Source: Fibrobacterota bacterium
Lineage (GTDB): Bacteria > Fibrobacterota > Fibrobacteria > UBA11236
Assembly (NCBI GenBank): GCA_028287505.1
Contig: JAQBPN010000103.1
Coordinates: 1-64,000 of the forward strand
Reading direction: 5' to 3'
Length of the DNA: 64,000 nt
Part shown: positions 2,423-25,830 of the stretch, in pieces
Numbering within the stretch: position 1 is the first letter of the stretch
Layout of the letters: the number at the start of each line of letters is the position of its first letter
Made by a program: the position numbers and the translations under genes
The notes under the pieces: model-generated
What the model was told of the DNA's origin: nothing
Database searches by the model: none
What the model saw: only the letters and a program-made list of their open reading frames with translations

Positions 2423-2827
2423 CTACGGTAGAATTTGCCTGATGCCCCGCTGAGAGGCCAGCCAGGAAAGGGCTTCCGATTCCGTGCAGCAGACTTTGAC
2501 ATTCCAGGCCCGGTTCCTGGCCACGGTTTCCCCGAACTTGTCTTCCGCGTAGGTATCGCCGTTAAGGTATACGATGGCGATGGTGCTGGTCCGTTCGATA
2601 TTGAACTTTCCCGGATTCTCGAATATCTGGTATGATTCGAAAAAAGTCTTCTTCCCCGTCAGATCGAAGACTCCCATGACCCGGCAGGTATCATCCTTCT
2701 CGAACTCTTCCGACAATCGCATCCAACATTCTTTCGCATCCTCGACGACCTGGCCGGGAACCCTGGTTCCGGTGACATCCATTCTCAACAGGTTGTCCGT
2801 TTTTGAAACGGCGATATGATACGACAT
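2423..2827 (-). CDS. STAS/SpoIIAA-like small protein
   Basis: 134 residues, no signal peptide or membrane segment. The pattern of a conserved 'GVFDLTGKK' strand, a central 'TIAIVYLNGD' strand and a C-terminal 'ARNRAWNVKV...ESEALSWL' helix resembles SpoIIAA-like/STAS domains used as non-enzymatic regulatory partners in many bacteria. Similarity is by fold pattern only and function is unknown. The gene lies 13 bp downstream of the lipoprotein gene on the same strand, so the two are probably co-transcribed. A strong GGAGGAG sits 4 bases before the ATG. Confidence 0.7.
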   Translation of the reverse strand: MSYHIAVSKTDNLLRMDVTGTRVPGQVVEDAKECWMRLSEEFEKDDTCRVMGVFDLTGKKTFFESYQIFENPGKFNIERTSTIAIVYLNGDTYAEDKFGETVARNRAWNVKVCCTESEALSWLASQRGIRQILP

Positions 2828-2840
2828 CGATCTCCTCCGC

Positions 2841-4454
2841 CTATTTTTCTTTGGGTGGAAGCGCGAAAGACCATTCGGTCACCTCGGTGCCGGTTGCGCT
2901 GCTGCCTACGCAGGATGGATTGATCATTTTGCCCATGATCCCGCTGCCTCCGGACAAACCTTGGACGGGGGGCAGCCACTCGATGGTGACCGGCCCCGTT
3001 CCTGATGTCCCCTGGCAGGATTCCGTCCAGTCCACCTCGGCGCTCACGTCGCCCGATGCCAGATAATCGTAGCCGAATTGCTTGATGTAGGCGGCGTCAT
3101 AGAATATGAGGAGGGAGCCCGTCTTCGCCAGATCGCCCTTATAGGTTTCCTTGTAGACGCAGGTCCGGACGTTGCTGCTCGAAGTCTTGACGCTCTCGTA
3201 TTCGACGGCGCCTATGGAAAAGTACCGGCGGAAGGTGGCGTCCCATTCCCAGCCCACCGTGGAGACCGTATGCGTCTTGGTGACCACGGTTCCCGAGGAC
3301 GAGGTTTCCGTGCAGCTCCAGAGCACGTCGACGTTGCCGGTCAATTGGCCGGGCGGATCCCCGCAAGGCACCACGGCCAGACGCGCTTCCCGCATGATGG
3401 TGTTCTCGCTGAAATCGCCGAGGGAGGCATCGGCCCAGGCCGATCCGGCCTTCATGCCCACGGACATGGCCGCCGTTTGCGGGGTGATCCCGGCGGCGGT
3501 TTCGTTCATCTGGTTCAGGAAGCGGACGGAATTGACTTCCTTGATTTCACTGCGCGCCTGATCGACCTTGGCGGCGGCGTTGGAGGAGTAGTTGGGATCG
3601 CTTTTCGTGACGGGGTTGGTGGGGTTCTCGGCGCACTTTTTCAAGGCGTCCAGCTCCAGGAACCATTTGGCGTTCTGCTGGGAAAGTTCCAGCGCGCCGC
3701 CGATGGCGGAGGCCGCTGAGGCCAGGGAGTAGATGTTGGAGAGGGCTCCCGTCGGGAGTCCGCTTTCCTTGGCGGCATCGAGCAAGGCGCCGATGCTTAC
3801 GTCCGCGCCGTTCTTTCCCACTTCGCCCCAATTGACCGCGGCTCCTCCGGTTCCTCCGTCCGCGGCCTCGGCGGGACCGCTGCGCGCGCCCGCTTTCGGA
3901 AGCGCGATGCGGCGCATCTCTTCGGGGGTGAGGCTGGAGGATCCCAGCGCGGCGATCAGCTCCGGAGGGAGGCCGGCGGTGGGAACGAAATAACTGAGAT
4001 CGGCTTTGGATCCGCCGGCGATCGAATCATGGGAGAATTTGATGTCATACAGGGCCGGGCCGCCTTTGGCCACGCGGGTGGACTCATCCGCAGTGGGCGC
4101 ATAGGTTTGGCCGGGCGTGATCTTCAGGGTGATGTCGCGCGTGGCCCCGTTGGGAAACGTCTGCTTATAGGTGAAGGTGTTGGCATCCACGCGAACGGTA
4201 TCGAGCTTGGCCGCGGCCAGGAAGTCGGCGACGGCGGCGGGAAGGCCTTTGGCTTTGAGAGCCGCGGATTGGATTTGGTCGACGGGGAAGTCCTTGTCCG
4301 TATTCCCCGGCGGAGCTGAGTCATTATTTCCCGAGTTGCAGCCGGCAAGGAGCAACGCCAGCAGGGAGGCTCCCAGCGCGAGCCGCAGGGCCGCGAAGGA
4401 GCATGGGTGCTTGCGTTTATGGGGGTGGGCGGGGTTGCCAGGGAATCGCGTCAT
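2841..4454 (-). CDS. Hypothetical lipoprotein
   Basis: 537 residues. The N-terminus has a basic region, a hydrophobic stretch and the lipobox L36-A-G-C39, so the mature protein should be lipid-anchored. After the anchor comes a short Asn/Asp/Pro-rich linker, a region of alternating strands, and a Gly/Ala-rich middle. I do not recognise a catalytic domain. It probably forms an operon with the STAS-like gene 13 bp downstream. It is divergent from the esterase at 4652, and the intergenic region contains the palindrome at 4561-4576. Confidence 0.75.
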   Translation of the reverse strand: MTRFPGNPAHPHKRKHPCSFAALRLALGASLLALLLAGCNSGNNDSAPPGNTDKDFPVDQIQSAALKAKGLPAAVADFLAAAKLDTVRVDANTFTYKQTFPNGATRDITLKITPGQTYAPTADESTRVAKGGPALYDIKFSHDSIAGGSKADLSYFVPTAGLPPELIAALGSSSLTPEEMRRIALPKAGARSGPAEAADGGTGGAAVNWGEVGKNGADVSIGALLDAAKESGLPTGALSNIYSLASAASAIGGALELSQQNAKWFLELDALKKCAENPTNPVTKSDPNYSSNAAAKVDQARSEIKEVNSVRFLNQMNETAAGITPQTAAMSVGMKAGSAWADASLGDFSENTIMREARLAVVPCGDPPGQLTGNVDVLWSCTETSSSGTVVTKTHTVSTVGWEWDATFRRYFSIGAVEYESVKTSSSNVRTCVYKETYKGDLAKTGSLLIFYDAAYIKQFGYDYLASGDVSAEVDWTESCQGTSGTGPVTIEWLPPVQGLSGGSGIMGKMINPSCVGSSATGTEVTEWSFALPPKEK

Positions 4455-11318: not shown

Positions 11319-12122
11319 TCATTTGGGTAAAGTTACCCATTTTGCCCCCCGTTGTGGACACTTCGCGGACACTCTCCTAAACCGGGCGTTGTGGGGAGGC
11401 ACTTCGATACCTCTTTTTCAGTTCCCGAACTTCAAATGTGCCCGGCGATCGCCTTGCCAAGTTTTTGGCACTTGACCCATATGCCGTATCTCTGCCCCGG
11501 CAGACTCCCAAGCTTGAAAAACGCACAGCCGAATCGAGAATGGGTTACGAATCAAAATCGGGTCTTAACCCCAACTGGAAATCGTCTTCTGGCTTGAGTC
11601 AGTTTCTCCATTCTATTCTCGACCGATCTCCGTGCGGAAGCTCTGCCCAATCCAGGGTACCCCATCCGATCGAATCGGACTCAGCCGAAAGATAATCGCG
11701 CCCGAAAAAAATCGCGTACAGAACGTGCGTATCTCAACTCAGTGTTTTTATGGCTTGTCCCTGCGATCCTGGGACTCTTTTGAGCGCGAAGTTTCCCCCG
11801 TTTTTCTTTCCAGTCAAATATGTATCGCAACCAGAATAGGCAATTCAATAAAACCATGATTTATAGCAAGATAGGATCCCCAAATCATCACGCTTGGATT
11901 TGATGGCGTGCATTTCGGTTCAGTCGCCCGCATCGAAGAAATAATGCCATGTAACCGAACTGTGACTCGATTGGATCATTCCCTCGTAAGGCAACGGTTG
12001 AACTTTTTCCGTCATCGGTGACCAATTTTTCTTGTGTTGGAGTAAATCACAATTCGGAGAAAAATCCGATTTGCTAGCATTTGCGATTAACAGTTGCTTC
12101 ACCCGCACAACGGAAAAACTCT
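11319..12122. other. AT-richer non-coding stretch at the left end of the island
   Basis: About 800 bases without a gene I can support. Short open frames exist, but none has a ribosome-binding site together with recognisable protein composition. The sequence is visibly poorer in G+C than the core genes on either side. It may be decayed remains of an integration module, which is inference only. Confidence 0.6.
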
Positions 12123-13259
12123 ATGAAATCGGCATGCCTTTCAAAAGCAGCAATTTTAACGGGCCTATCCATCATCGCCGGGTACTCGGGCACGTGGCCG
12201 GACTCCTTGGTCAACGCCATATTGAGCAACAATCATCCCCTGCAACGCCAGCTCGTGGAGTCACGGCCGGGCCAATGCGTCGCCGTCACGGGACTGAAAG
12301 CCGTTGCGATGATCCTACAAGCGAAACCATTAGACTCGCTGCCCATTCAATCCAGGCCGACGGACTCGCTGACCCTGCGATTGAGACCCGGGGCCAATTC
12401 GATGGGCCCATGGTCGGTTCCCGCATTCGAATGGGCCCTGAAACCGGATTTCGGAGATGCCTGTTATCCGACTTTCGAACAGTGCGCTCTCGATTCCACC
12501 GCGCCCGAAACCTTCCGGATGGCTGTTCTGAACGTCATGTCCGCGAGCAGCAAGAACCTTACGGTCGTGCAGTCCTCGGCAATGCATACCGCGATGAAAT
12601 CGATCCTTTCCAGCAGTGGAAATTCCACGGCGATGAGGGCGTTCATCTTGAGGACGGTCTGGAAAGCGGCCGAGTCCACCTATGAACAGGATTATTCCCC
12701 TTTCCTAACGACCAATGATTCGACCCTCAGGGAGGCGGCCTTCCAGGGCTTGATCCAGAAAATCAACGCCAATGGGATTGCGGGCAACAAGGAGGCGAAC
12801 AAAGCGATATTCGCCTCCTTCAAAAGTTTGGTTTCGCATCCAATCAGCCAGGGCCAGGTCCGCGTGATCGCGACGATACGCGAGGACTATTCCCGGGATT
12901 TCCTGTTGGAGAAGTGCGTGGGCGATCCGCAAAAACTGGCGATGATATTCATCAGGGACGGCGACATCCGCCATGCAGGATTGATCGCGGAAGCCGCGAA
13001 AGAAATCCGCGCCGCCACGGATGCGTCCGCACTGAAAAACGCCGTATCCCAAGGGATCAAGGATCCGGGGGGAACCATCGATCGGCTGCTGTTGGGAAGC
13101 TCCGGCGAATTGGAAGATGGCCTGACCCTATTAAGGGTATTTCCGAAAAATGCCGCGAGCCATGCCTCGCTCATCACCCAGACATCCGAGAGTTCCAATC
13201 CGGAATTGAAAGCGGCGGCGCAGGAAATCCTTCCGTACCTTCCAACGGCTTCGAACTAG
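12123..13259 (+). CDS. Exported HEAT-like repeat protein, partner of the RHS gene
   Basis: 378 residues from ATG 12123. An N-terminal signal peptide ('AAILTGLSIIAGYSG') suggests export. The remainder is mostly helical with repeated segments such as 'STLREAAFQGLIQKI' and 'NPELKAAAQEILPYL', a HEAT/Armadillo-like pattern without catalytic motifs. The stop lies 9 bases before the RHS start and overlaps its AGGAG ribosome-binding site, so the two genes are almost certainly co-transcribed and coupled. A role as scaffold or accessory factor for the RHS protein is inference; no family is firmly recognised. Confidence 0.7.
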   Translation: MKSACLSKAAILTGLSIIAGYSGTWPDSLVNAILSNNHPLQRQLVESRPGQCVAVTGLKAVAMILQAKPLDSLPIQSRPTDSLTLRLRPGANSMGPWSVPAFEWALKPDFGDACYPTFEQCALDSTAPETFRMAVLNVMSASSKNLTVVQSSAMHTAMKSILSSSGNSTAMRAFILRTVWKAAESTYEQDYSPFLTTNDSTLREAAFQGLIQKINANGIAGNKEANKAIFASFKSLVSHPISQGQVRVIATIREDYSRDFLLEKCVGDPQKLAMIFIRDGDIRHAGLIAEAAKEIRAATDASALKNAVSQGIKDPGGTIDRLLLGSSGELEDGLTLLRVFPKNAASHASLITQTSESSNPELKAAAQEILPYLPTASN

Positions 13260-13268
13260 GAGATGCCC

Positions 13269-16200
13269 ATGACGAAGCTGATAAAAATCGCTCCCGGCTT
13301 TCTTTTCCTCTTGGCCCTTTTCACGGCGACCCCCGCGCATGCAGCCAGCGTCCTGCTCGTGGTGGATGAAGCCGGAATGTGGCAAGGGGATTCGGTGATG
13401 AAGGTCCTGGCTGAAGAGCTCGGGCACACCGTGACCGTATCCACCCCTCCCGTAACCGTTTCCCAAGCCAGCGGGAAGGATCTGATCCTCGTATCTTCGA
13501 CATACAGTCCCGACCTCGACGATGGGTTCAGGACGGTGGCCATCCCGATTTTGAACTGGAGCGTGTACGAGTGGGAAGACATGGCCTTGGTCGAATCCGG
13601 CAATACCAGCAGTGACGCGAGCGCCAAAAGGATAAAGATTATCGATTCAACCCATGCCATGGCGGCGGGCCAGCACGGACTCGACACCATTGCCAGCTCC
13701 AACAACGATTTGGACTATGCGATCCCCACTTCCTCCGCCCAAATCGTGGCAACCAGGAATGGAAGCCCTGGGCTTGCGTCCATTTGGGGATACGAAGCCG
13801 GTGCGGCCATGGCGTATGGGTACAACGCTCCGGCCCGGCGCGCGGGAACTTTCGTTTACAATAACGGACCAACCAAGCTGAATACCGCTGGCCGTAATCT
13901 CATGAAAGCAGCCATGACTTGGTGCCTGGCGGGTTCGGTGGATACCACTCCGCCCGTGGTGCACATCACCTCTCCCGCCAACGGGAAGGGGTTCACCTCA
14001 TCGCCAATCAGTGTGGCTTGGACCGCGGATGGAGTCACCCAGACGAGCCAGCTCACCGAAACCTTGACCGAAGGAAGCAACAAGATTCTCCGGACCGCCA
14101 CGGATGGGTCCGGCAACACCGGAAAGGACAGTATTACGGTCGTGTTGGATACCCACGGCCCCACGGTGGTGATAACCAGTCCCGCCAATGGCTATGTGAC
14201 CAATCAAGCGTCCGCCACAATTGCGTGGACCGTCGATGGGGCGACCCAAACCATACAACTCACGGCTTCCCTTAGCGTCGGGTCCAACAACATAGTGCGC
14301 TCCGCAACGGACAGCCTTGGAAACCTTGGTAAAGACTCGATTACGATTGTGCGGGATACGGTAGCCCCGGTCGTCGTGATTACGAGCCCGGCGGCCGATC
14401 AATTATACAACGTATCTTCCATTTCGGTGGCCTGGACCGTGGACGGCGTGACCCAGACCGGCCAGACCACGGAAACGCTTTCCGCGGACGGAGCGCACAA
14501 TGTCATCCGATCCGCGACCGATGCGGCCGGAAACGTAGGGGCGGATACGGTTCGAGTATTCCGGGACATGACTGCACCGGTAGTGGCGATAACAAGTCCC
14601 GCGGATGGCGGTATTACGAACCAAACGTTCACCGTTGTGGCATGGACCGTGGACGGTATGAATCAGACGCTGTCGGGAACCTATGAAAATCTCGACGCAG
14701 GCGACAACTTCATCATCCGAACCGCGACCGACTCCGCCGGCAACGTAGGACGGGATACCATACGATTCGTCTGCGACAATGTTCCGCCGGTCATAGCCCT
14801 TATCTCGCCCAACCAATCGGCCGTAGTGGTGGACACCTCCGTGGACATCCATTGGTCGATTGACGGCGTATCTCAGACGCCGATCCATCATCACATGGAT
14901 TCCGGCGAGGTCAATATCATTACCTTGACTGCCGCGGATGCGGCCGATAATCACGATACGTTGAATGTGTCCGTGTACGCGGGTATATATATCCCCGATC
15001 TTATCGGGAGAACCTACTTCCAAGCGGATTCGCTTTTGCATCTCAGCGCCCTGGGCAAGGACAGTTCATGGGTGGACAACGATACGGTTCCCACCGGGCA
15101 GGTATTTGCTCAATCCCCTGTTGCAGGCGACAGTTTGCCATATCACTTCCTTGTCCATTACAAGATCTCGCGCGGGACCGATGCGAAGGATTTGACTCCC
15201 ACCTCCTTGGCTACCAAGGACATGACAGTAAACCCGGTCAGCCTGGAGTCCGGGGGATTCGTGCGGCTGGCCGTGGCCAATCTTGGCAGGACCGCGGTGG
15301 AAGACTCGTTCAGCCTTGTCGTGTTCGAGGACCGCAACCGCGATCTGCGCTTTTCCCCGGATACGGATCTGTACCTGGGACGGACGACGAACATCGATCC
15401 CATCGAGGCGGGGGATACCGCAGTGTTCGACATCGCCGTATCGGGTGGGTTGACGTTCAATGGAAACCGCATCAGCGCGGTGGCCGACTATGCGAATGCA
15501 ATCGCCGAGACCGATGAGGGCAACAACGCCATCCAGAGCATGGCCCAGTGCCGGAAACTGCCTTTGACAGTGAATTATACCCCGATCTTGAAATGGGAAT
15601 GGGTGGATTCCATAGGAGCGGGATCGGAAATAGCGATAAACACGCCATTGGTGGCCCATCTCACGGACGATAATGGAGACGGAAAATACGATTCGAAGGA
15701 TATCCCCGAGATCCTTGTGGCGACGATAGACAATGGCGATGGTGGGCACTTGATCGCTCTGAACGGCCGAGACGGACATGAGGTATGGAGAAAGGCCGGA
15801 CGCGTGAATTGGCCCTCCGTCGCCGCCACAGGCGATATCGACGGAGACGGCAGTCCCGAAGTTGTATTCATCGAGTCCCGGACCAATAGTTGGTATCGGC
15901 GATTGCTCATCTTGGACAACATGGGAAACAGGAAAGACTCCTGCGACTGGCAGTTTTTCGGGTCCATTGGCTTTGGGATCGATGAGTCCGTGACCATGAG
16001 CGATTTGGACGGAGATGGGAAAGCCGAACTCATTTGGGGCCAAAATATCTTCGACCACCGCGGCCGATTGATCTATCCCAAATCGTTTTACAAGGACTAC
16101 CACAGTCTGCAAGCTGCGGATCTCGATGGCGATGGCTACCAGGAGTTGGTCGGGTTGTTCACGCTGCCGACGAACATCAATCGGGAACTCTCGATTTTCG

Positions 16201-19200
16201 ATTACAGGAGCAAGACCCTGACCTTCAGGTCGACGGAAAGCGTCAGCGATGTTCCGCTCATCGGGCGGGTGGGAACTGATCCCAGGATTCTTTCTCCATT
16301 CGCGGAGGGACCGGACTCGATTGGAGGGGCCGCAATCTTCAATCCCTCCCTGGACAGTGTTAGTCATATTCCTTCCATCCAGTTTGTGCATCCAGGCTTC
16401 ATGATCCCCGATTATTTAACGGATCATTTTTTCTTTGGGAAGGATTCAGCGCGGATAATGTTCGCCGTAGGTTCGACGATAGGGGACCAGGGACGGCCCT
16501 ATTTTTCAAGGACGAACTTGCGAGACAGTTCCGTTTCCTATTGGCTGCATCCCCATGGAGTGGACGGCTCCGCTTTCTCGGCAAGAGGAACGGTTTTCGA
16601 TTTCGCCGATGATGACAACCCGAAAGTCGTGCTGGAAACCGATGATTCCATTTTCATCCAGGACTCGTCGGGAGCCATTCTGGGCAAGGTCCGGGCAAGC
16701 GGCCACAGATGGACGACCGGTATCACCATGGCGGATGCGGACAACGACGGCCACGCGGACATCGTGGCCGTTAGCGCCTTTCCGGACAGTTCGAGCTTAT
16801 CAAGGGTGGCGGTTTATTCCAATCCCACCTGGGTTGGGGCCCGGACCCTCTACAATCAAAACGGGTATACCGTCACCAACATCAACGACGACGGCACAAT
16901 CCCCCGTTTCCCCACTCCGAGCTGGCAGGCGAACAACACCGTCAACATCCAATGCACCGAGGGCCACTATGCTTGCGTGGACATGACGGCCTCTCTGCCG
17001 CAATTCGTTCAGGACACGGCGGGTCACGATACTCTTACCGCCCGCATCGGCAACGGCGGCGCCTTGACTTTGCCCGCCGGGATCCCCGTCACCTTGTATG
17101 CCGGCCATCTCGGGGCCGAAACCAAGCTTGTAACATTGAACAGCCCCCAGCGCCTGGAAGCGGGGGAGTATTACACCTTCCGATATCCCGTGGCCGACAG
17201 CGTGAAAGGCGCGTTCTCCTTTCGTTTCGCCGCCGATGACAGCGGGCACGGAAACGGCGGCCTGGACGAGATCGACGAGATCAACAATTCCGTGGTTCTG
17301 AGTATCATGGTCAACAACCTTGCTCCCGTTGTAACCGCCCCCGGGCACAGGTATGCCGAACCCGCCACCGCCTTCCTGGATACCTTACATGCCATCGATT
17401 CCGATGGCGACTCCGTCACTTTCCGGCTGGCCAAGGCTCCGTTGGGAATGACCCTCGACGCCCATACCGGCATCCTCTCCTGGATGCCTCCGGACAGCCT
17501 GCCCCGTTGCACGGTTACGGTGGCCGTTTCCGATCCGTATCAGGCGACCACCATGGCTTCCTTGCTCATCTATATCGGCAACGCGGCGAACCATCCTCCG
17601 CACATCGTTTCCACGCCGGACACGGTCGTCCTTCTGAACACGATTGACCTCCCCATTTCCCATGCTTACCGGTACATCATCCAGGCGTCGGATACGGACG
17701 GCGAGGCCCTGGAGTATGACGCGCGTTGCCTCAACTGCGAGGGCCATTCAGGCTCACGGCCGGAGCTGACGAACAACCGCATTTCGTGGATTCCCTTTCA
17801 ACCCATCTGGTCGGCGGAGGACTCGCTGATCATGCGGGTGACGGTCACTGATGCGCGGGGAGGCATCGACTCCCAGACCTTTACCCTCCGCCTGACGGAT
17901 CCGGAGGTTTCCGGCAATCATCCGCCGGGGTTCGTGTCCACGCCACCCACGACCGTGGTGGCAGGCGCGGATTACCGGTACGTTGTCAAAGCGGCGGACG
18001 CGGACGGGGATGCAATCACCTATTTCCTCAATGCTGCCCCCGACGATATGACCGTATCCGGGGGAGTGGTCCAATGGCACACGCCGCCGACCCCGGGAGC
18101 GACCGCGGACGTGGAACTCACCGTGTCCGACGTCCATTCGGCGCAGGCTCACCAATTCTGGCATATCGCCCTGGTACCGGATGTCATCCCGCCCGGTCTC
18201 AACGTAAGCTTCTCGCAAAATCCCGTCCAGCCCGGCCATTCGGTCACCGTGACCGTACATGCCCTGGACAATGTGGGCGTGGCTTCCATGGCGCTGAGTC
18301 AGGACGGAAGTCCCGTGACCCTGACCAGCGGGCAATACACCTTCACCCCCGCCGACAGCGGGGATTATGCCTTTGCGGCATCGGCCGATGACACCTCCGG
18401 GAATGTCGGCCATGCCACCAGCATCCTGCGCGTTACCGCTTCCGCCGACAATACACCGCCGACCGTGTCCGTATCGCATTCGCCCACCGATCCGGATGCG
18501 GGGGATCTGGTGACTTTCACCGTGGACGCCTCCGATGACGTGGCCCTGGATACCACCCGCATGTGGGTCAAGGTGGACGGCGTGAACCTGGTGGTCCATG
18601 ACGGCGAGGCCCAATACACTGCATTGCGTCCGGGAAGCTTCACGGCAAAGGTAGCGGCCTATGATCTGAGCGGAAACAGCGCGCTCGGTTCGGATGCATT
18701 TTACGTAAGCCCCCTGGGCGCAGACACCACGGCCCCCACCGCTGAATTGATAAGCCCCGCGGAAGATTCCGTAGTATACAGCCGCGTGAATGTGCTGGGC
18801 ACGGCCTATGACGCCCATTTGGCCTATTACACCTTGAGCTACCGCGAAGTAGGGACGACAACCTGGGTGGAGTTCTCCCGTTCCACAAGCGCGGTGCAAA
18901 ACAACAAATTAGGCTTGGTTGATGCGACGACGCTGGTCAACGGGGATTATGAAATCCTTCTGAGCGTGTATGATAGATCCGGGAATTCGAACTCGAAATC
19001 CACGCAAGTACACGTGACCGGGGAGAAGAAGGTCGGGAACTTCAGCCTATCCTTCCAGGATTTGTCCGTTCCCATGGCGGGAATGGACCTGAGCGTGACC
19101 CGCGCCTACGACAGCCGGGTCAAAACCCAGGGCGACTTCGGCATCGGCTGGAAAATGGGCCTGCGCTCGATAACCCTGAACGAAAACCGCAACCAGGGCA

Positions 19201-22200
19201 CGGAGTGGTCGGTGGATGTCTCCTTCGGGTTCATCCCGCATTTCGATATCAACCCGCAGAAGGCCCATACGGTATCCATTACGTTACCCGGGGGCCGGAA
19301 GCAGGAGTTCACCGCCGTGCCCCAATTCTTCAGCCAGTTCGATCCGTCCTACGGGACCATGACCTACCAGGCCAAGCCAGGCACCTACAGCAAACTGGAA
19401 GCGATGGATGTGGGTGATTTCATCGTCGTGGGCGGGGATTTGTACGATGTCGACGGGGACTTCGAATCATCGTTCAATCCGCAGCTCTACAAACTCACGT
19501 TATTGGACGGCAGCTATTTCGTCATTGACCAGGACGAAGGAGGCGTGACGGAATCCGGGGATGCCAATGGCAACAAGATCGAATGGGACAGCGCCTTCGT
19601 CAGCCATAGCGCCGGAAACTATATCGATTTCTCGCGCGACGACGAAGGACGCGTCACCGGCATAACCGACGGCGCGGGCCGCAGCGTGCAATATGTCTAC
19701 GACGTGCTCGGCAACCTGGGCAAGGTGGTGGATCCCAACGGCAACACCACCCTCTTCAAGTACGGCCCCGATAGCTACCTGACCGACATCGTCGACGCCC
19801 GGGGCGTACGGGCCAACCGCACCGAATACGATGACGACGGCCGCATCGTCCGGCAAATAAACGCCGAAGGCGACACCTTGCTCATGAATCATGACATCGA
19901 CCATAACCTGGAAGAGGTCCTGGACTTCAATGGCCATGTCACCTCGTACGGCTATGATCTGCATGGGAACGTGACCCGAAAGATGGACGATGCCGGCAAT
20001 TCTTGGTTCTACAGCTACGACTTGAGCGACAACCTCCTGTCCACGCTGTCCCCGGACGGGACCTTGAAAAACTCCACCTACGATGCCGACGGCAATGAAC
20101 TTTCCAGTACCGATGAAATGGGCCATTTGACCACGCGTTCCTACAATGCGCAGGGCAAACCGGAAACGGTCACGGACGCCTTGGGCCGTACCACCGAGTA
20201 CGTCTATGATGGCGCTGGCAACCTGGTCCAGGAAACGGGCCCGGATGGAACGGTCCAATCGCAGCGCACTTATGATGCCCATGGCAACGTCCTCACGGAG
20301 AAAGACGCCTTGGGCCACACCACCACCCACACTTACAATTCCCTAGGCTGGCTCCTGTCCGCCACCGATCCCCTAAGCCATACCCAACATTTCGGCCATG
20401 ACGGCGCCGGCAATGTTCTCTTCGAGGTTAATGCGGCCGGAGACACGACGCATTTCGCCTACGACAACAACGGCAACCGCGTGGCCGAGGTCAACGCCTT
20501 TGGTGACAGCGTGAAGACCGAATACAACGCTATCAACAAAGTGGTGAAGAGAATCGATGCGCTTGGCCATGTCACCCTCTCTGTCTACGACAATTTGGGC
20601 GACAAAATCGCGGATACCGCGGCGGATACCACGGTGACTTCCAGGACGTATGACGCTCAAGGTAACGTGGCCTCCATAACGGATGCCGTGGGTCGCACCA
20701 CGCACATGCAATACGATTTCGAAAACCGCCTGATCAAAACCACTTTTCCGGATATGAACTACACAACGACGACCTATGATGCCCTGGGCCGCAGGATTCG
20801 CGCCGTGGATGCCAACGGGAACGCCACCGAATACGGCTATGATGATGCCGGCCGAAATATCTCCGTGACCGATGCGCTGGGACATATCACCCAATACGAA
20901 TACGACGAGGCCGGACGCAAGACGTCCATGATCGATGCTCTGGGGCACCGCATCGACTATGCCTACGATGATTATGACCGCCTTACCGTGACCACCTATC
21001 CCGACGCCACAACCCGCAGTATTACCTATGATGATGTGGGACGGAAAACCGCCGAGACGGATCCCATGGGTTTCACTACCCACTTCTACTACGACAATGC
21101 TGGGAACCTGACGGCCGTCAAGGACGCGGCGGGAGACAGCACGAGCTATACCTACGACGAAAACAACAACAGACTCACCCAAAAAGACGCGAATAACCAT
21201 ACCACATCAATGGCTTACGATTTGCTAAATCGCATGGTCTCCCGGACTTATCCGAACGGGAATCAGGAGCGCTGGACTTACAACTCCAATGGAGCTATGC
21301 TTTCTCATGTGAAGGGTATGGACAGCACGGCCTATGCCTACGATGTGATGGACCGCGAGGTGTATCGCGAACATTTCAACAGCGGCCACACCGTCGCGAC
21401 CACCTATACTTTGGATGGAAAACGGGAAACCGTGGTTGACCATCGTGGCACCAGCACCTTCTCCTATGACAACCGCAGCCGTTTGGCCGGCGAGGGTCAT
21501 CCCAACGGGGATTCCCTGGAAAATCACTACGATGCTCAGGGAAACCGGACCTCAGTCGTCACTCCATTCGGCACGACCCACTATACCTATGATGTCCTGA
21601 ACCGTATGGCCAGCGTGGTGTCGCCGCAAAGCAAGACCACCACTTATCATTACGATGCTGTTGGCAATCGCGACTCCGTGGTGAGCCCTAATGGGACCAC
21701 CAGCGGGTATCAATACGACGCCCTGAACCGGCTCGCGCGGGTGCGGCACTATAAGGCGGGGACGATCTTGGCTCACTATGCCTACGCCCTGAACGCTGCC
21801 GGCATCCGTACGCAAGTCACCGAGAAGGACAGTAGCAAGGTCTTTTTCGCCTACGACAGCCTGTACCGCCTCAAGAGCGAGCGGCGGACCGGGAACCACA
21901 CCGACACGATGACGTACACCTATGATCCGGTGGGGAACCGCTCTACGAAGGGCCACCGTGGGGTAACGACCAACTACGCCTACAATAACCGGGACCAACT
22001 GCTCAGCGAGTGGGATGGAACCGATTCGACACTGTACGCGTACGACTCGGTCGGGCGGATGCTGACGAAGGCTGAAGCGGGCGGTACGACCCATTATCGG
22101 TGGCGCGATGAAGACCGGCTCGACTCCCTATATGGGCCAGGCGTGAGCGTGAAGTACCAATACGACGCCGATGGTCAGCGGGTGAAAGACTCCACGGGCT

Positions 22201-23255
22201 CGACCGTGAGGCAGTATTTGATCGATCCGCTTTTGCCGTACGGCCAGGTGATTGCTGAGACGGATGGAAGCAATAGCCTGGTGAGCGAATACGTGGCAGG
22301 ACTCGACAGGGTGAGTTTGCGGAGGAGCGGTGCGGTGCACTACTACCTGGCCGATGGGCAGGGTTCGACGCGGTTGTTGACCGACTCCACAGGTACGGTG
22401 ACGGATTCAACCGTATACACGGCCTTTGGTGAAACGCTGTTCTCGAGTGGATCTACGCCGAATAATTTCCTTTACACTGGTGAACAATTCGACGCAAGCG
22501 CTGGCCTCTACAATCTCAGGGCTCGGCTCATGGATCCGAGGGTGGGACGGTTCGCATCCGTGGATCCTTACGAAGGGGATCCTGAAGCGCCCATCAGCTT
22601 GCACCGCTATCTCTATGCGGGAGCCAGTCCATCGAATTTCGTTGACCCTACGGGAGAAGTTTTCATCGGTGAGTTACTTCTCTCGATCTCGGTTTCCTCA
22701 ATTCTCATTAATGTTGGTGCCACGATAAACCGATCGGCTGCTACAAAAATTCCTCTAAGCGCGTATTCTGCCGACAATGATGTGCAGCAAACAATTGGAA
22801 TTACTTTTGCTGAGTCTGGTACCGTAAGTAACGGCGGAGAATCGATCGACGAACAGGTAGCTATAGCCGCAACTGTTATTAATCGTGTTTGGTATTCAAC
22901 TTGGTCCAAGCAAAATCGCAGGGATTTCGGTGGAACGGTAGGCGCTGTTATCAGCAAAAAAGGCGAATATCTCGCTTATGGTGGCGATAGGTGGAATCTT
23001 GTCATGTCGGGATCTTCTTTGAAAACACCGGAGGTTCTGAGTTCGTTGCTAAAAACAAACGGGGATCGATTGCACTTTAATAATGTCGTGTCCGCTGTTC
23101 CGACGGATCTATCCTTGCCCATAGATGCGCTAGGAGGCTATCCCATTTGGTTTCAGAAAGGGAGCACGAGTCCAAGTAAGGACCGAGCAGAATATTTGGG
23201 AAAAATCGGGTTGCATAACTTCTGGGGGCTAGTTGATGGTCGCGAAGCTTACTAA
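13269..23255 (+). CDS. Giant Sec-exported RHS/YD-repeat polymorphic-toxin-like protein with SleB/CwlJ-like tip
   Basis: 3,328 residues from ATG 13269 (AGGAG 6 bases upstream). In order: signal peptide 1-25; ThuA/amidotransferase-like Rossmann region about 30-220; five tandem Ig-like repeats of about 69 residues (225-570, 'PPVV.ITSPA.G'); PASTA-like 575-635; CARDB-like 637-760; FG-GAP blades about 797-1165 ('DGDGSPEVVF'); second CARDB-like domain near 1227; several Ig/cadherin-like modules 1349-1920; then the RHS shell with dozens of YD repeats from about 2118; RHS-associated core 3024-3127 ending 'YLYAGASPSNFVDPTG'. The final 200 residues are a distinct, AT-richer tip with 'FAESG' (E3182), 'VAIAATVINRV' and a terminal 'IGLHNFWG', matching the pattern of SleB/CwlJ lytic transglycosylases. 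Known for the class: the shell encloses and releases a C-terminal toxin. A peptidoglycan-cutting toxin is inferred. Confidence 0.88.
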   Translation: MTKLIKIAPGFLFLLALFTATPAHAASVLLVVDEAGMWQGDSVMKVLAEELGHTVTVSTPPVTVSQASGKDLILVSSTYSPDLDDGFRTVAIPILNWSVYEWEDMALVESGNTSSDASAKRIKIIDSTHAMAAGQHGLDTIASSNNDLDYAIPTSSAQIVATRNGSPGLASIWGYEAGAAMAYGYNAPARRAGTFVYNNGPTKLNTAGRNLMKAAMTWCLAGSVDTTPPVVHITSPANGKGFTSSPISVAWTADGVTQTSQLTETLTEGSNKILRTATDGSGNTGKDSITVVLDTHGPTVVITSPANGYVTNQASATIAWTVDGATQTIQLTASLSVGSNNIVRSATDSLGNLGKDSITIVRDTVAPVVVITSPAADQLYNVSSISVAWTVDGVTQTGQTTETLSADGAHNVIRSATDAAGNVGADTVRVFRDMTAPVVAITSPADGGITNQTFTVVAWTVDGMNQTLSGTYENLDAGDNFIIRTATDSAGNVGRDTIRFVCDNVPPVIALISPNQSAVVVDTSVDIHWSIDGVSQTPIHHHMDSGEVNIITLTAADAADNHDTLNVSVYAGIYIPDLIGRTYFQADSLLHLSALGKDSSWVDNDTVPTGQVFAQSPVAGDSLPYHFLVHYKISRGTDAKDLTPTSLATKDMTVNPVSLESGGFVRLAVANLGRTAVEDSFSLVVFEDRNRDLRFSPDTDLYLGRTTNIDPIEAGDTAVFDIAVSGGLTFNGNRISAVADYANAIAETDEGNNAIQSMAQCRKLPLTVNYTPILKWEWVDSIGAGSEIAINTPLVAHLTDDNGDGKYDSKDIPEILVATIDNGDGGHLIALNGRDGHEVWRKAGRVNWPSVAATGDIDGDGSPEVVFIESRTNSWYRRLLILDNMGNRKDSCDWQFFGSIGFGIDESVTMSDLDGDGKAELIWGQNIFDHRGRLIYPKSFYKDYHSLQAADLDGDGYQELVGLFTLPTNINRELSIFDYRSKTLTFRSTESVSDVPLIGRVGTDPRILSPFAEGPDSIGGAAIFNPSLDSVSHIPSIQFVHPGFMIPDYLTDHFFFGKDSARIMFAVGSTIGDQGRPYFSRTNLRDSSVSYWLHPHGVDGSAFSARGTVFDFADDDNPKVVLETDDSIFIQDSSGAILGKVRASGHRWTTGITMADADNDGHADIVAVSAFPDSSSLSRVAVYSNPTWVGARTLYNQNGYTVTNINDDGTIPRFPTPSWQANNTVNIQCTEGHYACVDMTASLPQFVQDTAGHDTLTARIGNGGALTLPAGIPVTLYAGHLGAETKLVTLNSPQRLEAGEYYTFRYPVADSVKGAFSFRFAADDSGHGNGGLDEIDEINNSVVLSIMVNNLAPVVTAPGHRYAEPATAFLDTLHAIDSDGDSVTFRLAKAPLGMTLDAHTGILSWMPPDSLPRCTVTVAVSDPYQATTMASLLIYIGNAANHPPHIVSTPDTVVLLNTIDLPISHAYRYIIQASDTDGEALEYDARCLNCEGHSGSRPELTNNRISWIPFQPIWSAEDSLIMRVTVTDARGGIDSQTFTLRLTDPEVSGNHPPGFVSTPPTTVVAGADYRYVVKAADADGDAITYFLNAAPDDMTVSGGVVQWHTPPTPGATADVELTVSDVHSAQAHQFWHIALVPDVIPPGLNVSFSQNPVQPGHSVTVTVHALDNVGVASMALSQDGSPVTLTSGQYTFTPADSGDYAFAASADDTSGNVGHATSILRVTASADNTPPTVSVSHSPTDPDAGDLVTFTVDASDDVALDTTRMWVKVDGVNLVVHDGEAQYTALRPGSFTAKVAAYDLSGNSALGSDAFYVSPLGADTTAPTAELISPAEDSVVYSRVNVLGTAYDAHLAYYTLSYREVGTTTWVEFSRSTSAVQNNKLGLVDATTLVNGDYEILLSVYDRSGNSNSKSTQVHVTGEKKVGNFSLSFQDLSVPMAGMDLSVTRAYDSRVKTQGDFGIGWKMGLRSITLNENRNQGTEWSVDVSFGFIPHFDINPQKAHTVSITLPGGRKQEFTAVPQFFSQFDPSYGTMTYQAKPGTYSKLEAMDVGDFIVVGGDLYDVDGDFESSFNPQLYKLTLLDGSYFVIDQDEGGVTESGDANGNKIEWDSAFVSHSAGNYIDFSRDDEGRVTGITDGAGRSVQYVYDVLGNLGKVVDPNGNTTLFKYGPDSYLTDIVDARGVRANRTEYDDDGRIVRQINAEGDTLLMNHDIDHNLEEVLDFNGHVTSYGYDLHGNVTRKMDDAGNSWFYSYDLSDNLLSTLSPDGTLKNSTYDADGNELSSTDEMGHLTTRSYNAQGKPETVTDALGRTTEYVYDGAGNLVQETGPDGTVQSQRTYDAHGNVLTEKDALGHTTTHTYNSLGWLLSATDPLSHTQHFGHDGAGNVLFEVNAAGDTTHFAYDNNGNRVAEVNAFGDSVKTEYNAINKVVKRIDALGHVTLSVYDNLGDKIADTAADTTVTSRTYDAQGNVASITDAVGRTTHMQYDFENRLIKTTFPDMNYTTTTYDALGRRIRAVDANGNATEYGYDDAGRNISVTDALGHITQYEYDEAGRKTSMIDALGHRIDYAYDDYDRLTVTTYPDATTRSITYDDVGRKTAETDPMGFTTHFYYDNAGNLTAVKDAAGDSTSYTYDENNNRLTQKDANNHTTSMAYDLLNRMVSRTYPNGNQERWTYNSNGAMLSHVKGMDSTAYAYDVMDREVYREHFNSGHTVATTYTLDGKRETVVDHRGTSTFSYDNRSRLAGEGHPNGDSLENHYDAQGNRTSVVTPFGTTHYTYDVLNRMASVVSPQSKTTTYHYDAVGNRDSVVSPNGTTSGYQYDALNRLARVRHYKAGTILAHYAYALNAAGIRTQVTEKDSSKVFFAYDSLYRLKSERRTGNHTDTMTYTYDPVGNRSTKGHRGVTTNYAYNNRDQLLSEWDGTDSTLYAYDSVGRMLTKAEAGGTTHYRWRDEDRLDSLYGPGVSVKYQYDADGQRVKDSTGSTVRQYLIDPLLPYGQVIAETDGSNSLVSEYVAGLDRVSLRRSGAVHYYLADGQGSTRLLTDSTGTVTDSTVYTAFGETLFSSGSTPNNFLYTGEQFDASAGLYNLRARLMDPRVGRFASVDPYEGDPEAPISLHRYLYAGASPSNFVDPTGEVFIGELLLSISVSSILINVGATINRSAATKIPLSAYSADNDVQQTIGITFAESGTVSNGGESIDEQVAIAATVINRVWYSTWSKQNRRDFGGTVGAVISKKGEYLAYGGDRWNLVMSGSSLKTPEVLSSLLKTNGDRLHFNNVVSAVPTDLSLPIDALGGYPIWFQKGSTSPSKDRAEYLGKIGLHNFWGLVDGREAY

Positions 23256-23922
23256 AAAAATTGGTGTAGCCCTGCTTTTTATGGCTTCTGTCTTCGCTGA
23301 CGAACGCGAGGACAACATAAGCCTTGCGAATAAATACATTGTGCACGCTGCTGAAGTGATTCCGCTTTTTAATTATAAAACCAAAAAGAAATTTGCGTTC
23401 CCTGTTAAGATCATCAGTAAATATGCGGTTGATAATTACACTGCTGGGGATAGTGTTGTTGAAGTGTATTATCCTGAGCTGTTTATTAAAGGTTACGTGT
23501 TTAAGGATTCAGCGGTGGGTTTTTATGCTGCAGGGCTTGATTTCCAGACCAACATGCGTGGGAAGAAAGAAGAATTTGAACGCCTTATTCCAAAGGGCAA
23601 CGTGGAGTCGCAAACGGTAATTGGCCCTGAACATGACGGCGAGTTTTTTAAAACCGTCGATGCCAAAATCGCAAAGCTGCTCAATCAATGCGATGAGCCT
23701 GACAGCACCTTTCACGACACGTGGTTTATGGGGTGGGAAACGGGGGCGGTTGGCTATGTGTATTATGTCCACGCCAAGGAGCCGGACCAAGTCGGAGAAA
23801 TCATTTATCGAAAGAGCGATGCTTCTTCAATTCACTGCTCCTTTAAAAAATCCGCGAACGAGAAGGAGTACAGTCAGATTTTGAAAAGAGGGATCCGGAT
23901 GAAAAGCCAGACCAAAAAATAA
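23236..23922 (+). CDS. Candidate periplasmic immunity protein for the RHS tip
   Basis: 228 residues from ATG 23236, overlapping the end of the RHS gene by 20 bases. A clear Sec signal peptide (basic VAKLTKK, hydrophobic core, cleavage after ASVFA, residue 21) predicts a periplasmic location. The mature part is an alpha/beta mixture with aromatic-rich 'DTWFMGWETGAVGYVYYVH' and no recognised domain. Base composition is clearly AT-richer than the RHS shell and matches the RHS tip, as expected if tip and immunity gene were acquired together. Immunity function is inferred from position, coupling and compartment match with a cell-wall-cutting tip. It might instead be an unrelated exported protein. 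Confidence 0.65.
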   Translation: MVAKLTKKIGVALLFMASVFADEREDNISLANKYIVHAAEVIPLFNYKTKKKFAFPVKIISKYAVDNYTAGDSVVEVYYPELFIKGYVFKDSAVGFYAAGLDFQTNMRGKKEEFERLIPKGNVESQTVIGPEHDGEFFKTVDAKIAKLLNQCDEPDSTFHDTWFMGWETGAVGYVYYVHAKEPDQVGEIIYRKSDASSIHCSFKKSANEKEYSQILKRGIRMKSQTKK

Positions 23923-23961
23923 GGTTGGCTCGGTTTGTTTTTGGCGGCAACAATCCCTACA

Positions 23962-24246
23962 TCAGTGCTGCCCGATCAGCCCCTTGATCTGCCGAAGGAT
24001 CATCTTCTGCCCATCGGGCCTTAGCCGCCCGAACAACCCCTGCACCTTGGCTTCGAGCGTGTTGCGGTGCAGCCGCCGCGTCGGGGCCTCCACGCGCTTG
24101 CGCCCTTCGCCGCCGTAAAGCTCTTCTATCGAGGCGCCTAAGAGCTGCGCCAACTTGGGCACCAGCTCCACGTCCGGTTTCCGGGAACCGCGCTCATAGT
24201 TCGCGATAGCCACCTGGGTTAACCCCAACTGCTCGGCCAGCTCCAC
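23962..24246 (-). CDS. XRE-family helix-turn-helix regulator, apparently 5'-truncated
   Basis: 94 residues from GTG 24246. The HTH core 'LAEQLGLTQVAIANYERGSRKPDVELVPKLAQLLG' is a good XRE/Cro match, but helix 1 is incomplete. In-frame codons continue upstream only for 'NRKRKGFTQ' before a stop at 24274-24276, so about ten expected residues are missing. At that same point the sequence changes into an inverted-repeat-rich stretch. The gene may be truncated or use a non-standard start. It lies beside, and on the same strand as, the STAND-Mrr gene and could have controlled it. Confidence 0.6.
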   Translation of the reverse strand: MELAEQLGLTQVAIANYERGSRKPDVELVPKLAQLLGASIEELYGGEGRKRVEAPTRRLHRNTLEAKVQGLFGRLRPDGQKMILRQIKGLIGQH

Positions 24247-24271
24247 CTGGGTGAAGCCTTTGCGTTTCCGA

Positions 24272-24387
24272 TTTTACGCAAACTGCCTGCGGCAGTCCGG
24301 TTCTTCCAGACCTTCACGTAAAACACGTTATGCAAACCGACCGGCTCCGCATACGACCTCCGAAGGCGGCCTATGCCAGACCGGTCG
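24272..24387. repeat. Nested inverted repeats between the XRE and STAND-Mrr genes
   Basis: Three dyads are visible: TTTTACG (24272-24278) with CGTAAAA (24317-24323), enclosing CTGCC/GGCAG (24283-24295); and a larger imperfect hairpin, CGACCGG (24338-24344) with CCGGTCG (24381-24387), containing GCATA/TATGC. The segment starts where the XRE reading frame loses its N-terminus. It lies downstream of the leftward STAND-Mrr gene and may act as a terminator or mark an insertion. Confidence 0.55.
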
Positions 24388-24400
24388 CAGAACGCACTCT

Positions 24401-25534
24401 TTAACGACCGGACTTTTTATATCCCTGGATCCAGCGCGCAAGGTCGAAATAGTCACGAAGAGCCAGCTGGTATTGGTGCTTTTGCTGGAAGGCCTGGGCG
24501 TCTGCGCTGAACGAAGAAGTAGTCACCATCATCGCGCTGCTCGCCTGATAATCGCAAAGCGTTCCGTACAAGGAGCGCACCAGGTCCACTCCCACCTTTC
24601 GGTCTTCCCGGTATCGCTTCGCCTCGACCAGGCAGAGCAATCTCCCGAGCTCCGTCTTTTGGTACGCGAGGATATCTTTTCCGCCATCCCTCGTAGCCTT
24701 AGTCAGCTCGACCTCCCAACCCATGTCGGTCAGAATTTCCGCTAGCACCTCTTCGAACTTCCGAGGCGACAGATCGAATATGGCGTTGGGCTGCTTCTTG
24801 AGCTGGTGAAGGAGGGCCTCGTTGGCCATGACGATTGTGGGCTTAACGACGGAAACGATTTGATCCTGAGAGGCCTTTTCAGAAAGGTCATAAAGGTTGC
24901 CGAGGAGTATGCGCTCGAAGTTATCTTTTCCTCCCGACTCTAATAGGTCAGCCAATAAGGAAATCGCCAAGGGGTTTCCTTGGGTAAACTTCATCGCTTG
25001 CTCAAAATGCTTCTGAGAAAAATCGAAGGAGGAGAGAACCCTCTGCAAAAGTATCTCCGCGGCGTCGCTGTCTAAGGGCTCCAGCTCCAAAACTTTCGCT
25101 CGACGGATTTCCGGTCGACGCCGCATTGTGATGGCTAAAGACTTTACGCGCTTCCAATTGAAGATCTTGTCCGTTGCCTCGCTGAGCTGCTTGTCTGTTA
25201 AAGCATCCGCCCCATCAAGAACAACCATGGTCTCCTCGAATGGTCGATCTTCCCGTCGAGCTTCCTCAAAGTCGTGAACCAATTTGTCGATCGCTTTAGT
25301 CGCATCCTTTTCCGAGGACAAATCGAGCCAAAGCGGCTCCATGAAAAAATGATCATACGAATTCAAATAGCTCTGCAGCAGACTTGACTTGCCGACACCG
25401 GCGGGTCCCACCAGCACAACGGGTGAACCGTGATCGCCCCAACGCAGCCGCTCCCTAAGCCAGCTCAACTCTTTGCGTCGGCCGATGAAGAAGGGATTGA
25501 CTTTCAAGTTTCGAAAACGGCGGTCTCTGCCCAT
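24401..25534 (-). CDS. STAND-type ATPase fused to an Mrr-like restriction nuclease domain
   Basis: 377 residues from ATG 25534. The N-terminal NTPase has Walker A GPAGVGKS (43-50), Walker B MVVLDGAD (103-110) and a 'QGNPLAISLL' motif (185-194), as in STAND/NB-ARC-like ATPases. The C-terminal domain from about residue 253 ('DLSPRKFEEVLAEILTDMGW') is an Mrr_cat nuclease with D287 in GGKD and E304-x-K306 in VEAKRY, the PD-(D/E)xK active site, followed by 'MMVTTSSFSADA'. No sensor repeats lie between them, which makes it compact compared with Avs-type proteins. A DNA-cutting antiphage or plasmid-defence effector is inferred. Upstream in-frame codons are in a hairpin-bearing non-coding region and are not included. 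Confidence 0.8.
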   Translation of the reverse strand: MGRDRRFRNLKVNPFFIGRRKELSWLRERLRWGDHGSPVVLVGPAGVGKSSLLQSYLNSYDHFFMEPLWLDLSSEKDATKAIDKLVHDFEEARREDRPFEETMVVLDGADALTDKQLSEATDKIFNWKRVKSLAITMRRRPEIRRAKVLELEPLDSDAAEILLQRVLSSFDFSQKHFEQAMKFTQGNPLAISLLADLLESGGKDNFERILLGNLYDLSEKASQDQIVSVVKPTIVMANEALLHQLKKQPNAIFDLSPRKFEEVLAEILTDMGWEVELTKATRDGGKDILAYQKTELGRLLCLVEAKRYREDRKVGVDLVRSLYGTLCDYQASSAMMVTTSSFSADAQAFQQKHQYQLALRDYFDLARWIQGYKKSGR

Positions 25535-25676
25535 AATAGGTAAAGGATAAAAATGTTCGCGGGGAGTTGGCCGGGCGATGCTGGGGCATGGCCCATGGCC
25601 GGGCCCGCACCAGGGCAGTGCGGAGCGCACGCGGAGGGACGGCTGCGCCCGCATTGGCGCTTGTGCCTGCGCGCGG

Positions 25677-25705
25677 CTTTGGCTTTTTGGAACAAAAAGC
25701 CAAAG
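25677..25705. other. Perfect 13-bp hairpin in the STAND-Mrr leader
   Basis: CTTTGGCTTTTTG-GAA-CAAAAAGCCAAAG, a 13-bp perfect stem with a 3-base loop, lies in a GC-rich non-coding segment about 140 bp upstream of the STAND-Mrr start. It could be a terminator insulating that gene, or part of a dispersed palindromic element. Confidence 0.65.
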
Positions 25706-25830
25706 GGTGGGAGGAATGCCTTCCCTGGGCCCCGTTCCTGGTTGTAGGGAGTCAGCGGATCCCACCTCTGGGTTCTGCGCCCCGTAGCTTGCGCCGGTTA
25801 TGGCGGTACAGGAAGACCGAAGCGCCCATA

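Follow-up and report, generated by a model that had tools for sequence, protein, structure and literature searches.

A Fibrobacterota RHS polymorphic toxin with a putative SleB/CwlJ-like tip and a candidate periplasmic immunity protein

RHS proteins end in C-terminal tips, and the locus considered here raises the question of what the tip of one such giant from a Fibrobacterota bacterium attacks, and whether the small gene whose frame overlaps its stop codon shields the producer from it. The window, i.e., the whole stretch of 64,000 nucleotides that was analysed, places both genes on the forward strand. We consider it probable that they code for a Sec-exported RHS toxin carrying a recombinant SleB/CwlJ-like peptidoglycan-lytic cassette with its own immunity gene directly behind it.

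An RHS carrier with an exchangeable tip

The features of the locus are the following:

12123..13259, plus strand: upstream ORF (378 aa), ending 9 bases 5′ of the RHS start
13269..23255, plus strand: RHS polymorphic toxin (3328 aa; from ORF calling with Pfam and NCBIfam scans), comprising in order a Sec signal (residues 1–25), an N-terminal domain, a stalk of Ig-like and FG-GAP/PASTA/CARDB-like domains, RHS repeats, the core (3050–3129), the pre-tip segment and the tip
22416..22655, plus strand: RHS-associated core (residues 3050–3129, ending in NFVDPTG), just after the GC3 change point at residue 3046
22656..22736, plus strand: hydrophobic pre-tip segment (residues 3130–3156), similar in relatives with different tips
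22737..23252, plus strand: putative SleB/CwlJ (Hydrolase_2)-like toxin tip (residues 3157–3328), with predicted catalytic Glu 3182 and C-terminal GLHNFW
23236..23922, plus strand: candidate periplasmic immunity protein (228 aa, Sec signal), overlapping the toxin gene by 20 bases

The RHS frame is open from 13263/13269 to 23255, with an ATG at 13269 and an AGGAG six bases 5′ of it; its stop codon occupies 23253–23255, while the ATG of the small gene lies at 23236. Re-reading of the ORFs bears out the initial annotation in its coordinates for both genes and in the 20-base overlap, and the tip motifs that it had picked out (E3182 in FAESG, VAIAATVINRV and IGLHNFWG) lie at the positions it gave. 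The upstream ORF is probably co-transcribed with the RHS gene; it has no family match in Pfam or NCBIfam and no counterpart at the RHS loci of relatives, and is not clearly a component of the toxin.

The large protein is an RHS polymorphic toxin, combining RHS repeats (RHS_repeat, E 2.1e-99) with an RHS-associated core of the DPxG-ending type (Rhs_assc_core, E 2.5e-16, up to residue 3129) in the Pfam and NCBIfam scans, and family scans place Ig-like, FG-GAP, PASTA-like and CARDB-like domains in its stalk. Its N-terminus, MTKLIKIAPGFLFLLALFTATPAHA/A, is a Sec-type signal; signal peptides were called throughout by eye and hydropathy rather than by SignalP. The Pfam and NCBIfam scans found no PAAR, VgrG or T9SS C-terminal domain, in agreement with the initial annotation, which had described a Sec-signal protein devoid of PAAR and VgrG-like parts. 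By the same scans it has neither the PAAR, VgrG or Hcp fusion that defines T6SS effectors nor the C-terminal sorting domain that defines T9SS substrates. The genome itself codes for the T6SS sheath protein VipB at another locus (E 6e-128) and for the T9SS protein SprA (E 4e-150), but the RHS protein carries no recognised signal for either system. These two libraries, which may or may not include a TANFOR model, also gave no match to TANFOR.

The closest relative of the RHS protein is a 3621-residue protein from a genome of the same genus (locus L041, genome G158), which aligns with residues 348–3157 at 42–57% identity and continues beyond residue 3157 into an unrelated tip. Other members of the phylum have similar cores, yet different tips, one of them an AHH nuclease (E 1.2e-5). 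Thus, the tip is exchanged between otherwise homologous RHS proteins, and the window's version was not found in five other genomes of the genus. The nucleotide composition changes at the same end of the gene: GC3 is 0.72 before and 0.46 after the best change point, with values of 0.42 for the tip and 0.50 for the small gene as against 0.76–0.82 across eleven further large ORFs in the window. Taken together with the tip swap, this break indicates that the core end, the tip and the neighbouring gene were probably acquired jointly through recombination.

A Sec signal and an adhesin-like stalk of Ig and FG-GAP domains might also be expected if the RHS protein were no weapon but served, once exported, in structure or autolysis, its SleB-like end remodelling the wall of the producer. 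However, a tip that relatives replace with unrelated domains, including a nuclease, that is foreign in composition together with its neighbour, and that is missing from the five congeneric genomes, makes this very improbable, and the toxin reading is the one developed below.

Several observations concern the carrier and its cassettes more generally. Some 27 residues, mostly hydrophobic, separate the DPxG motif from unrelated tips in the window and in L041, L042, L043, L044, L046 and L047; since this segment is similar ahead of unrelated tips it belongs to the carrier, and it might signal processing or insertion into the membrane. L041 has an additional orphan cassette consisting of a core end and another tip, and in L048 (G005:C3:5000-17000) four RHS core ends, each bearing a different tip, stand in a row that looks like an array of such orphans. 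On the minus strand of L042, at about 200–840 of the locus, the RHS frame runs into sequence resembling the alpha-amylase family, possibly an assembly chimera.

Resemblance of the tip to SleB/CwlJ hydrolases

The initial annotation had assigned the tip to the SleB/CwlJ family and named a Hydrolase_2 profile search as the check. Hydrolase_2 (PF07486) is indeed the sole Pfam match of the tip (E=0.0062 with the entire Pfam library searched), but at 17.6 bits it falls below the curated cut-off of 27 bits. Neither the tip nor the neighbour matched anything in PHROGs, PADLOC or NCBIfam. Across 168 genomes of the phylum, and in 84,980 species genomes scanned by pattern, the tip has a single homologue, the C-terminus of a 519-residue protein (L004:7443-9002) from a host of the same class as the window genome. 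It shares 36% identity over 162 residues and conserves the catalytic-type Glu; viral contigs, plasmids and phages yielded no relatives.

Profile comparison with hhalign of a two-sequence tip profile against eight true Hydrolase_2 proteins, which themselves match the SleB structures 4f55/4fet at 5e-17, gave a score of 35.4, as compared to 24.0 for the best of 300 column shuffles and 13.7 for the reversed profile, with an alignment that covers the N-terminal third of the domain only. As single sequences the window tip scored 32.6 and the 519-residue homologue 16.8, the latter on its own falling short of the SleB profile (E=0.072). Among 177,635 PDB sequences, the best hit of the two-sequence profile was SleB 4f55, albeit a weak one (E=0.41). 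The alignment with 4f55 sets FAES/YCES of the two tips on VYGES, placing their Glu at the position of the SleB glutamate, and AIAA..NRV on AVAAVILNRV. We take the Glu of VYGES to be the essential catalytic residue of SleB. The C-terminal GxHxF of Hydrolase_2 proteins (e.g., IGNHLFY and YGAHNFYKL) recurs in the tip as IGLHNFWGL. A four-sequence MAFFT alignment put the Glu of a further SleB-like protein (L052, see below) at the wrong place and was excluded from the conclusions.

The assignment of the tip to SleB/CwlJ is thus weak on any single score, with partly independent lines in agreement: what stands of it is the hhalign score above shuffles, the first rank of 4f55, the motifs, and the Glu kept in the homologue, itself the end of a PAAR-linked protein with a putative peptidoglycan-binding domain, and what does not is a Pfam match at the level of the family's own cut-off. 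With the spore cortex-lytic enzymes (4f55, 4fet), of which SleB depends on its catalytic Glu (PMC12331253), the tip shares the Glu motif, the AxAAxVxNRV helix and the C-terminal GxHxF. It differs from them in having five extra residues inserted past the Glu motif, an enlarged middle and the sub-cut-off Pfam score, and their context is spore germination.

Sub-threshold scores, a motif match lying mainly in one third of the domain and an AlphaFold2 model, built from the two-sequence alignment, that is too low in confidence to be used (pLDDT 36.9, pTM 0.33) would also suit a toxin outside the SleB class, with coincidental or ancient motifs and some other periplasmic action (e.g., on lipid II or the membrane), the neighbour still conferring immunity. 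Yet Pfam, the profile comparison and the PDB sequence search all name one family, the C-terminal GxHxF is common to true Hydrolase_2 proteins, and the homologue occurs in one protein with a PG_binding_1 match (below the cut-off, E 0.0014). Hence, we regard a non-SleB toxin as distinctly unlikely and retain the SleB/CwlJ-like reading.

The 519-residue homologue further contains a stretch that looks by eye like an M15 zinc peptidase, which Pfam did not confirm. Some 0.7 kb upstream of it is the gene of a PAAR-type protein (L004:5636-6733; recognised in the sequence by reading). The stop of the homologue is overlapped (ATGA) by the start of the next gene, which codes for a 403-residue protein bearing an N-terminal signal. 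A protein from a congener of the window genome, L052:3080-4972, combines PG_binding_1 and OmpA-like domains with Hydrolase_2 at 21.0 bits and TIGR02869 (spore_SleB) at 2.4e-6. This 630-aa SleB-like protein on the minus strand of L052 is followed by a lipoprotein-like ORF (2503–3138), constituting a second SleB-type toxin–immunity candidate.

The exported neighbour as candidate immunity protein

The 228-residue product of the ORF starting at ATG 23236 begins with MVAKLTKKIGVALLFMASVFA/DE, by eye and hydropathy a Sec-type signal, as proposed in the initial annotation. Searches of the 168 genomes of the phylum, of plasmids and viral contigs, and of the PDB gave no homologue, and Pfam, PHROGs and PADLOC gave no family match. 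It is also unrelated to the 403-residue protein that follows the 519-residue homologue, and its AlphaFold2 model from the single sequence, with a pLDDT of 40.1, was likewise unusable. Given this lack of homologues, the case for immunity to the tip draws on position, overlap, composition and signal. Its place directly behind the tip and the overlapping frames fit a cognate immunity gene, and it may neutralise the tip.

The protein might instead be exported for some other purpose, or assist the tip as a chaperone or accessory, with protection coming from elsewhere, and the absence of any homologue or family match in the searches made leaves room for this. Against it speak the frame overlap directly behind the tip together with a shared foreign composition, an export signal that fits the compartment of the toxin, and small ORFs that likewise trail differing tips within this RHS family. 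We therefore judge such a role unlikely and prefer immunity. Each of the three SleB-like tips found in the phylum (window, L004 and L052) has an exported neighbour behind it; in L041, L043 and L046, by contrast, the small ORF after the tip lacks a signal (3/3), a pattern which in this small sample is consistent with the compartment of the neighbour matching the type of tip. The candidate immunity protein behind the L041 tip (at about 12004–12483) matches DUF7684 (E 2e-12), which may be an immunity family.

Proposed mechanism, known systems and flanking genes

We posit that the RHS protein, to judge from its signal, crosses the inner membrane via Sec and would then be displayed or released past the outer membrane, with the tip held in the RHS shell. 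Upon contact or release, the tip might reach a neighbouring Gram-negative cell and be freed into its periplasm, where it would act as a lytic-transglycosylase-like toxin, Glu3182 serving as the general acid/base in cutting the glycan strand. As the toxin would pass through the producer's own periplasm during export, immunity would be needed there, and the 228-residue exported protein may provide it by binding and blocking the tip.

The initial annotation knew of no described pair of this kind, a claim that does not hold. In T6EC3/T6IC3, a T6SS pair of Acinetobacter rudis, the SleB-like effector is rendered non-toxic by E108Q (Geller et al. 2024, PMC11148199), and the immunity protein T6IC3 carries a periplasmic signal (PMC11148199). 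Compared by description only, this pair resembles ours in the C-terminal SleB-like toxin, the catalytic Glu and the adjacent immunity protein with a periplasmic signal; T6EC3 differs in its N-terminal PAAR domain and T6SS delivery, with RHS repeats going unmentioned (PMC11148199). The Acinetobacter T6SS effector group Tpe29 also lists a Hydrolase 2 domain (PMC6833914). RHS toxins exported by Sec/T2SS, including ones with peptidoglycan-cutting L,D-peptidase tips, have likewise been described (Zhang et al. 2012, PMC3482391). They share with the window protein the signal peptide, RHS stalk, exchangeable tip, immunity gene behind and peptidoglycan target, but their tips are of another enzyme class, and neither CwlJ nor cell wall hydrolase occurs in that text. 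TANFOR toxins of T9SS-bearing Bacteroidetes have peptidoglycan hydrolase tips (PMC7073777) and are comparable in their signal peptide, exchangeable C-terminal toxins that include such hydrolases, and T9SS-bearing hosts. They belong to another phylum, and the window protein has RHS repeats in place of a detected TANFOR domain.

Since SleB-like pairs and Sec-exported or peptidoglycan-cutting RHS toxins are already on record, what is new about the locus is how known elements are combined, while the kind of system is not new. In the open-licence literature we found described neither an RHS protein with a SleB or cell wall hydrolase domain nor RHS toxins in Fibrobacterota; nor did we find described a Sec-exported RHS protein that ends in a SleB-like tip and is paired with an immunity candidate devoid of detectable relatives. 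The locus would place SleB-type wall cutters, hitherto linked to spore germination and to a single tested T6SS effector, on Sec-exported RHS toxins as well, and this in a phylum where little seems to have been described on weapons against other bacteria, our literature search on them having returned nothing. Beyond this, it offers an immunity candidate that is new and an instance of the neighbour's compartment following the target of the tip, and it poses a question amenable to testing, namely by what way RHS giants exported by Sec exit the Gram-negative cell. A more far-reaching reading, in which such a giant delivers a SleB-class lytic transglycosylase independently of T6SS by an undescribed route, possibly the large SprA pore of the T9SS even though no C-terminal sorting domain is present, and is paired with a new immunity family, is conceivable though on balance doubtful.

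Behind the immunity candidate, a minus-strand fragment at 23960–24276 of the window resembles an XRE-type regulator, with a stop near its start. Further on, the minus-strand gene at 24401–25765 codes for an ATPase-like protein with an end that by eye resembles Mrr-type restriction endonucleases; its GC3 is intermediate (0.63), and it is possibly a defence gene beside the toxin.
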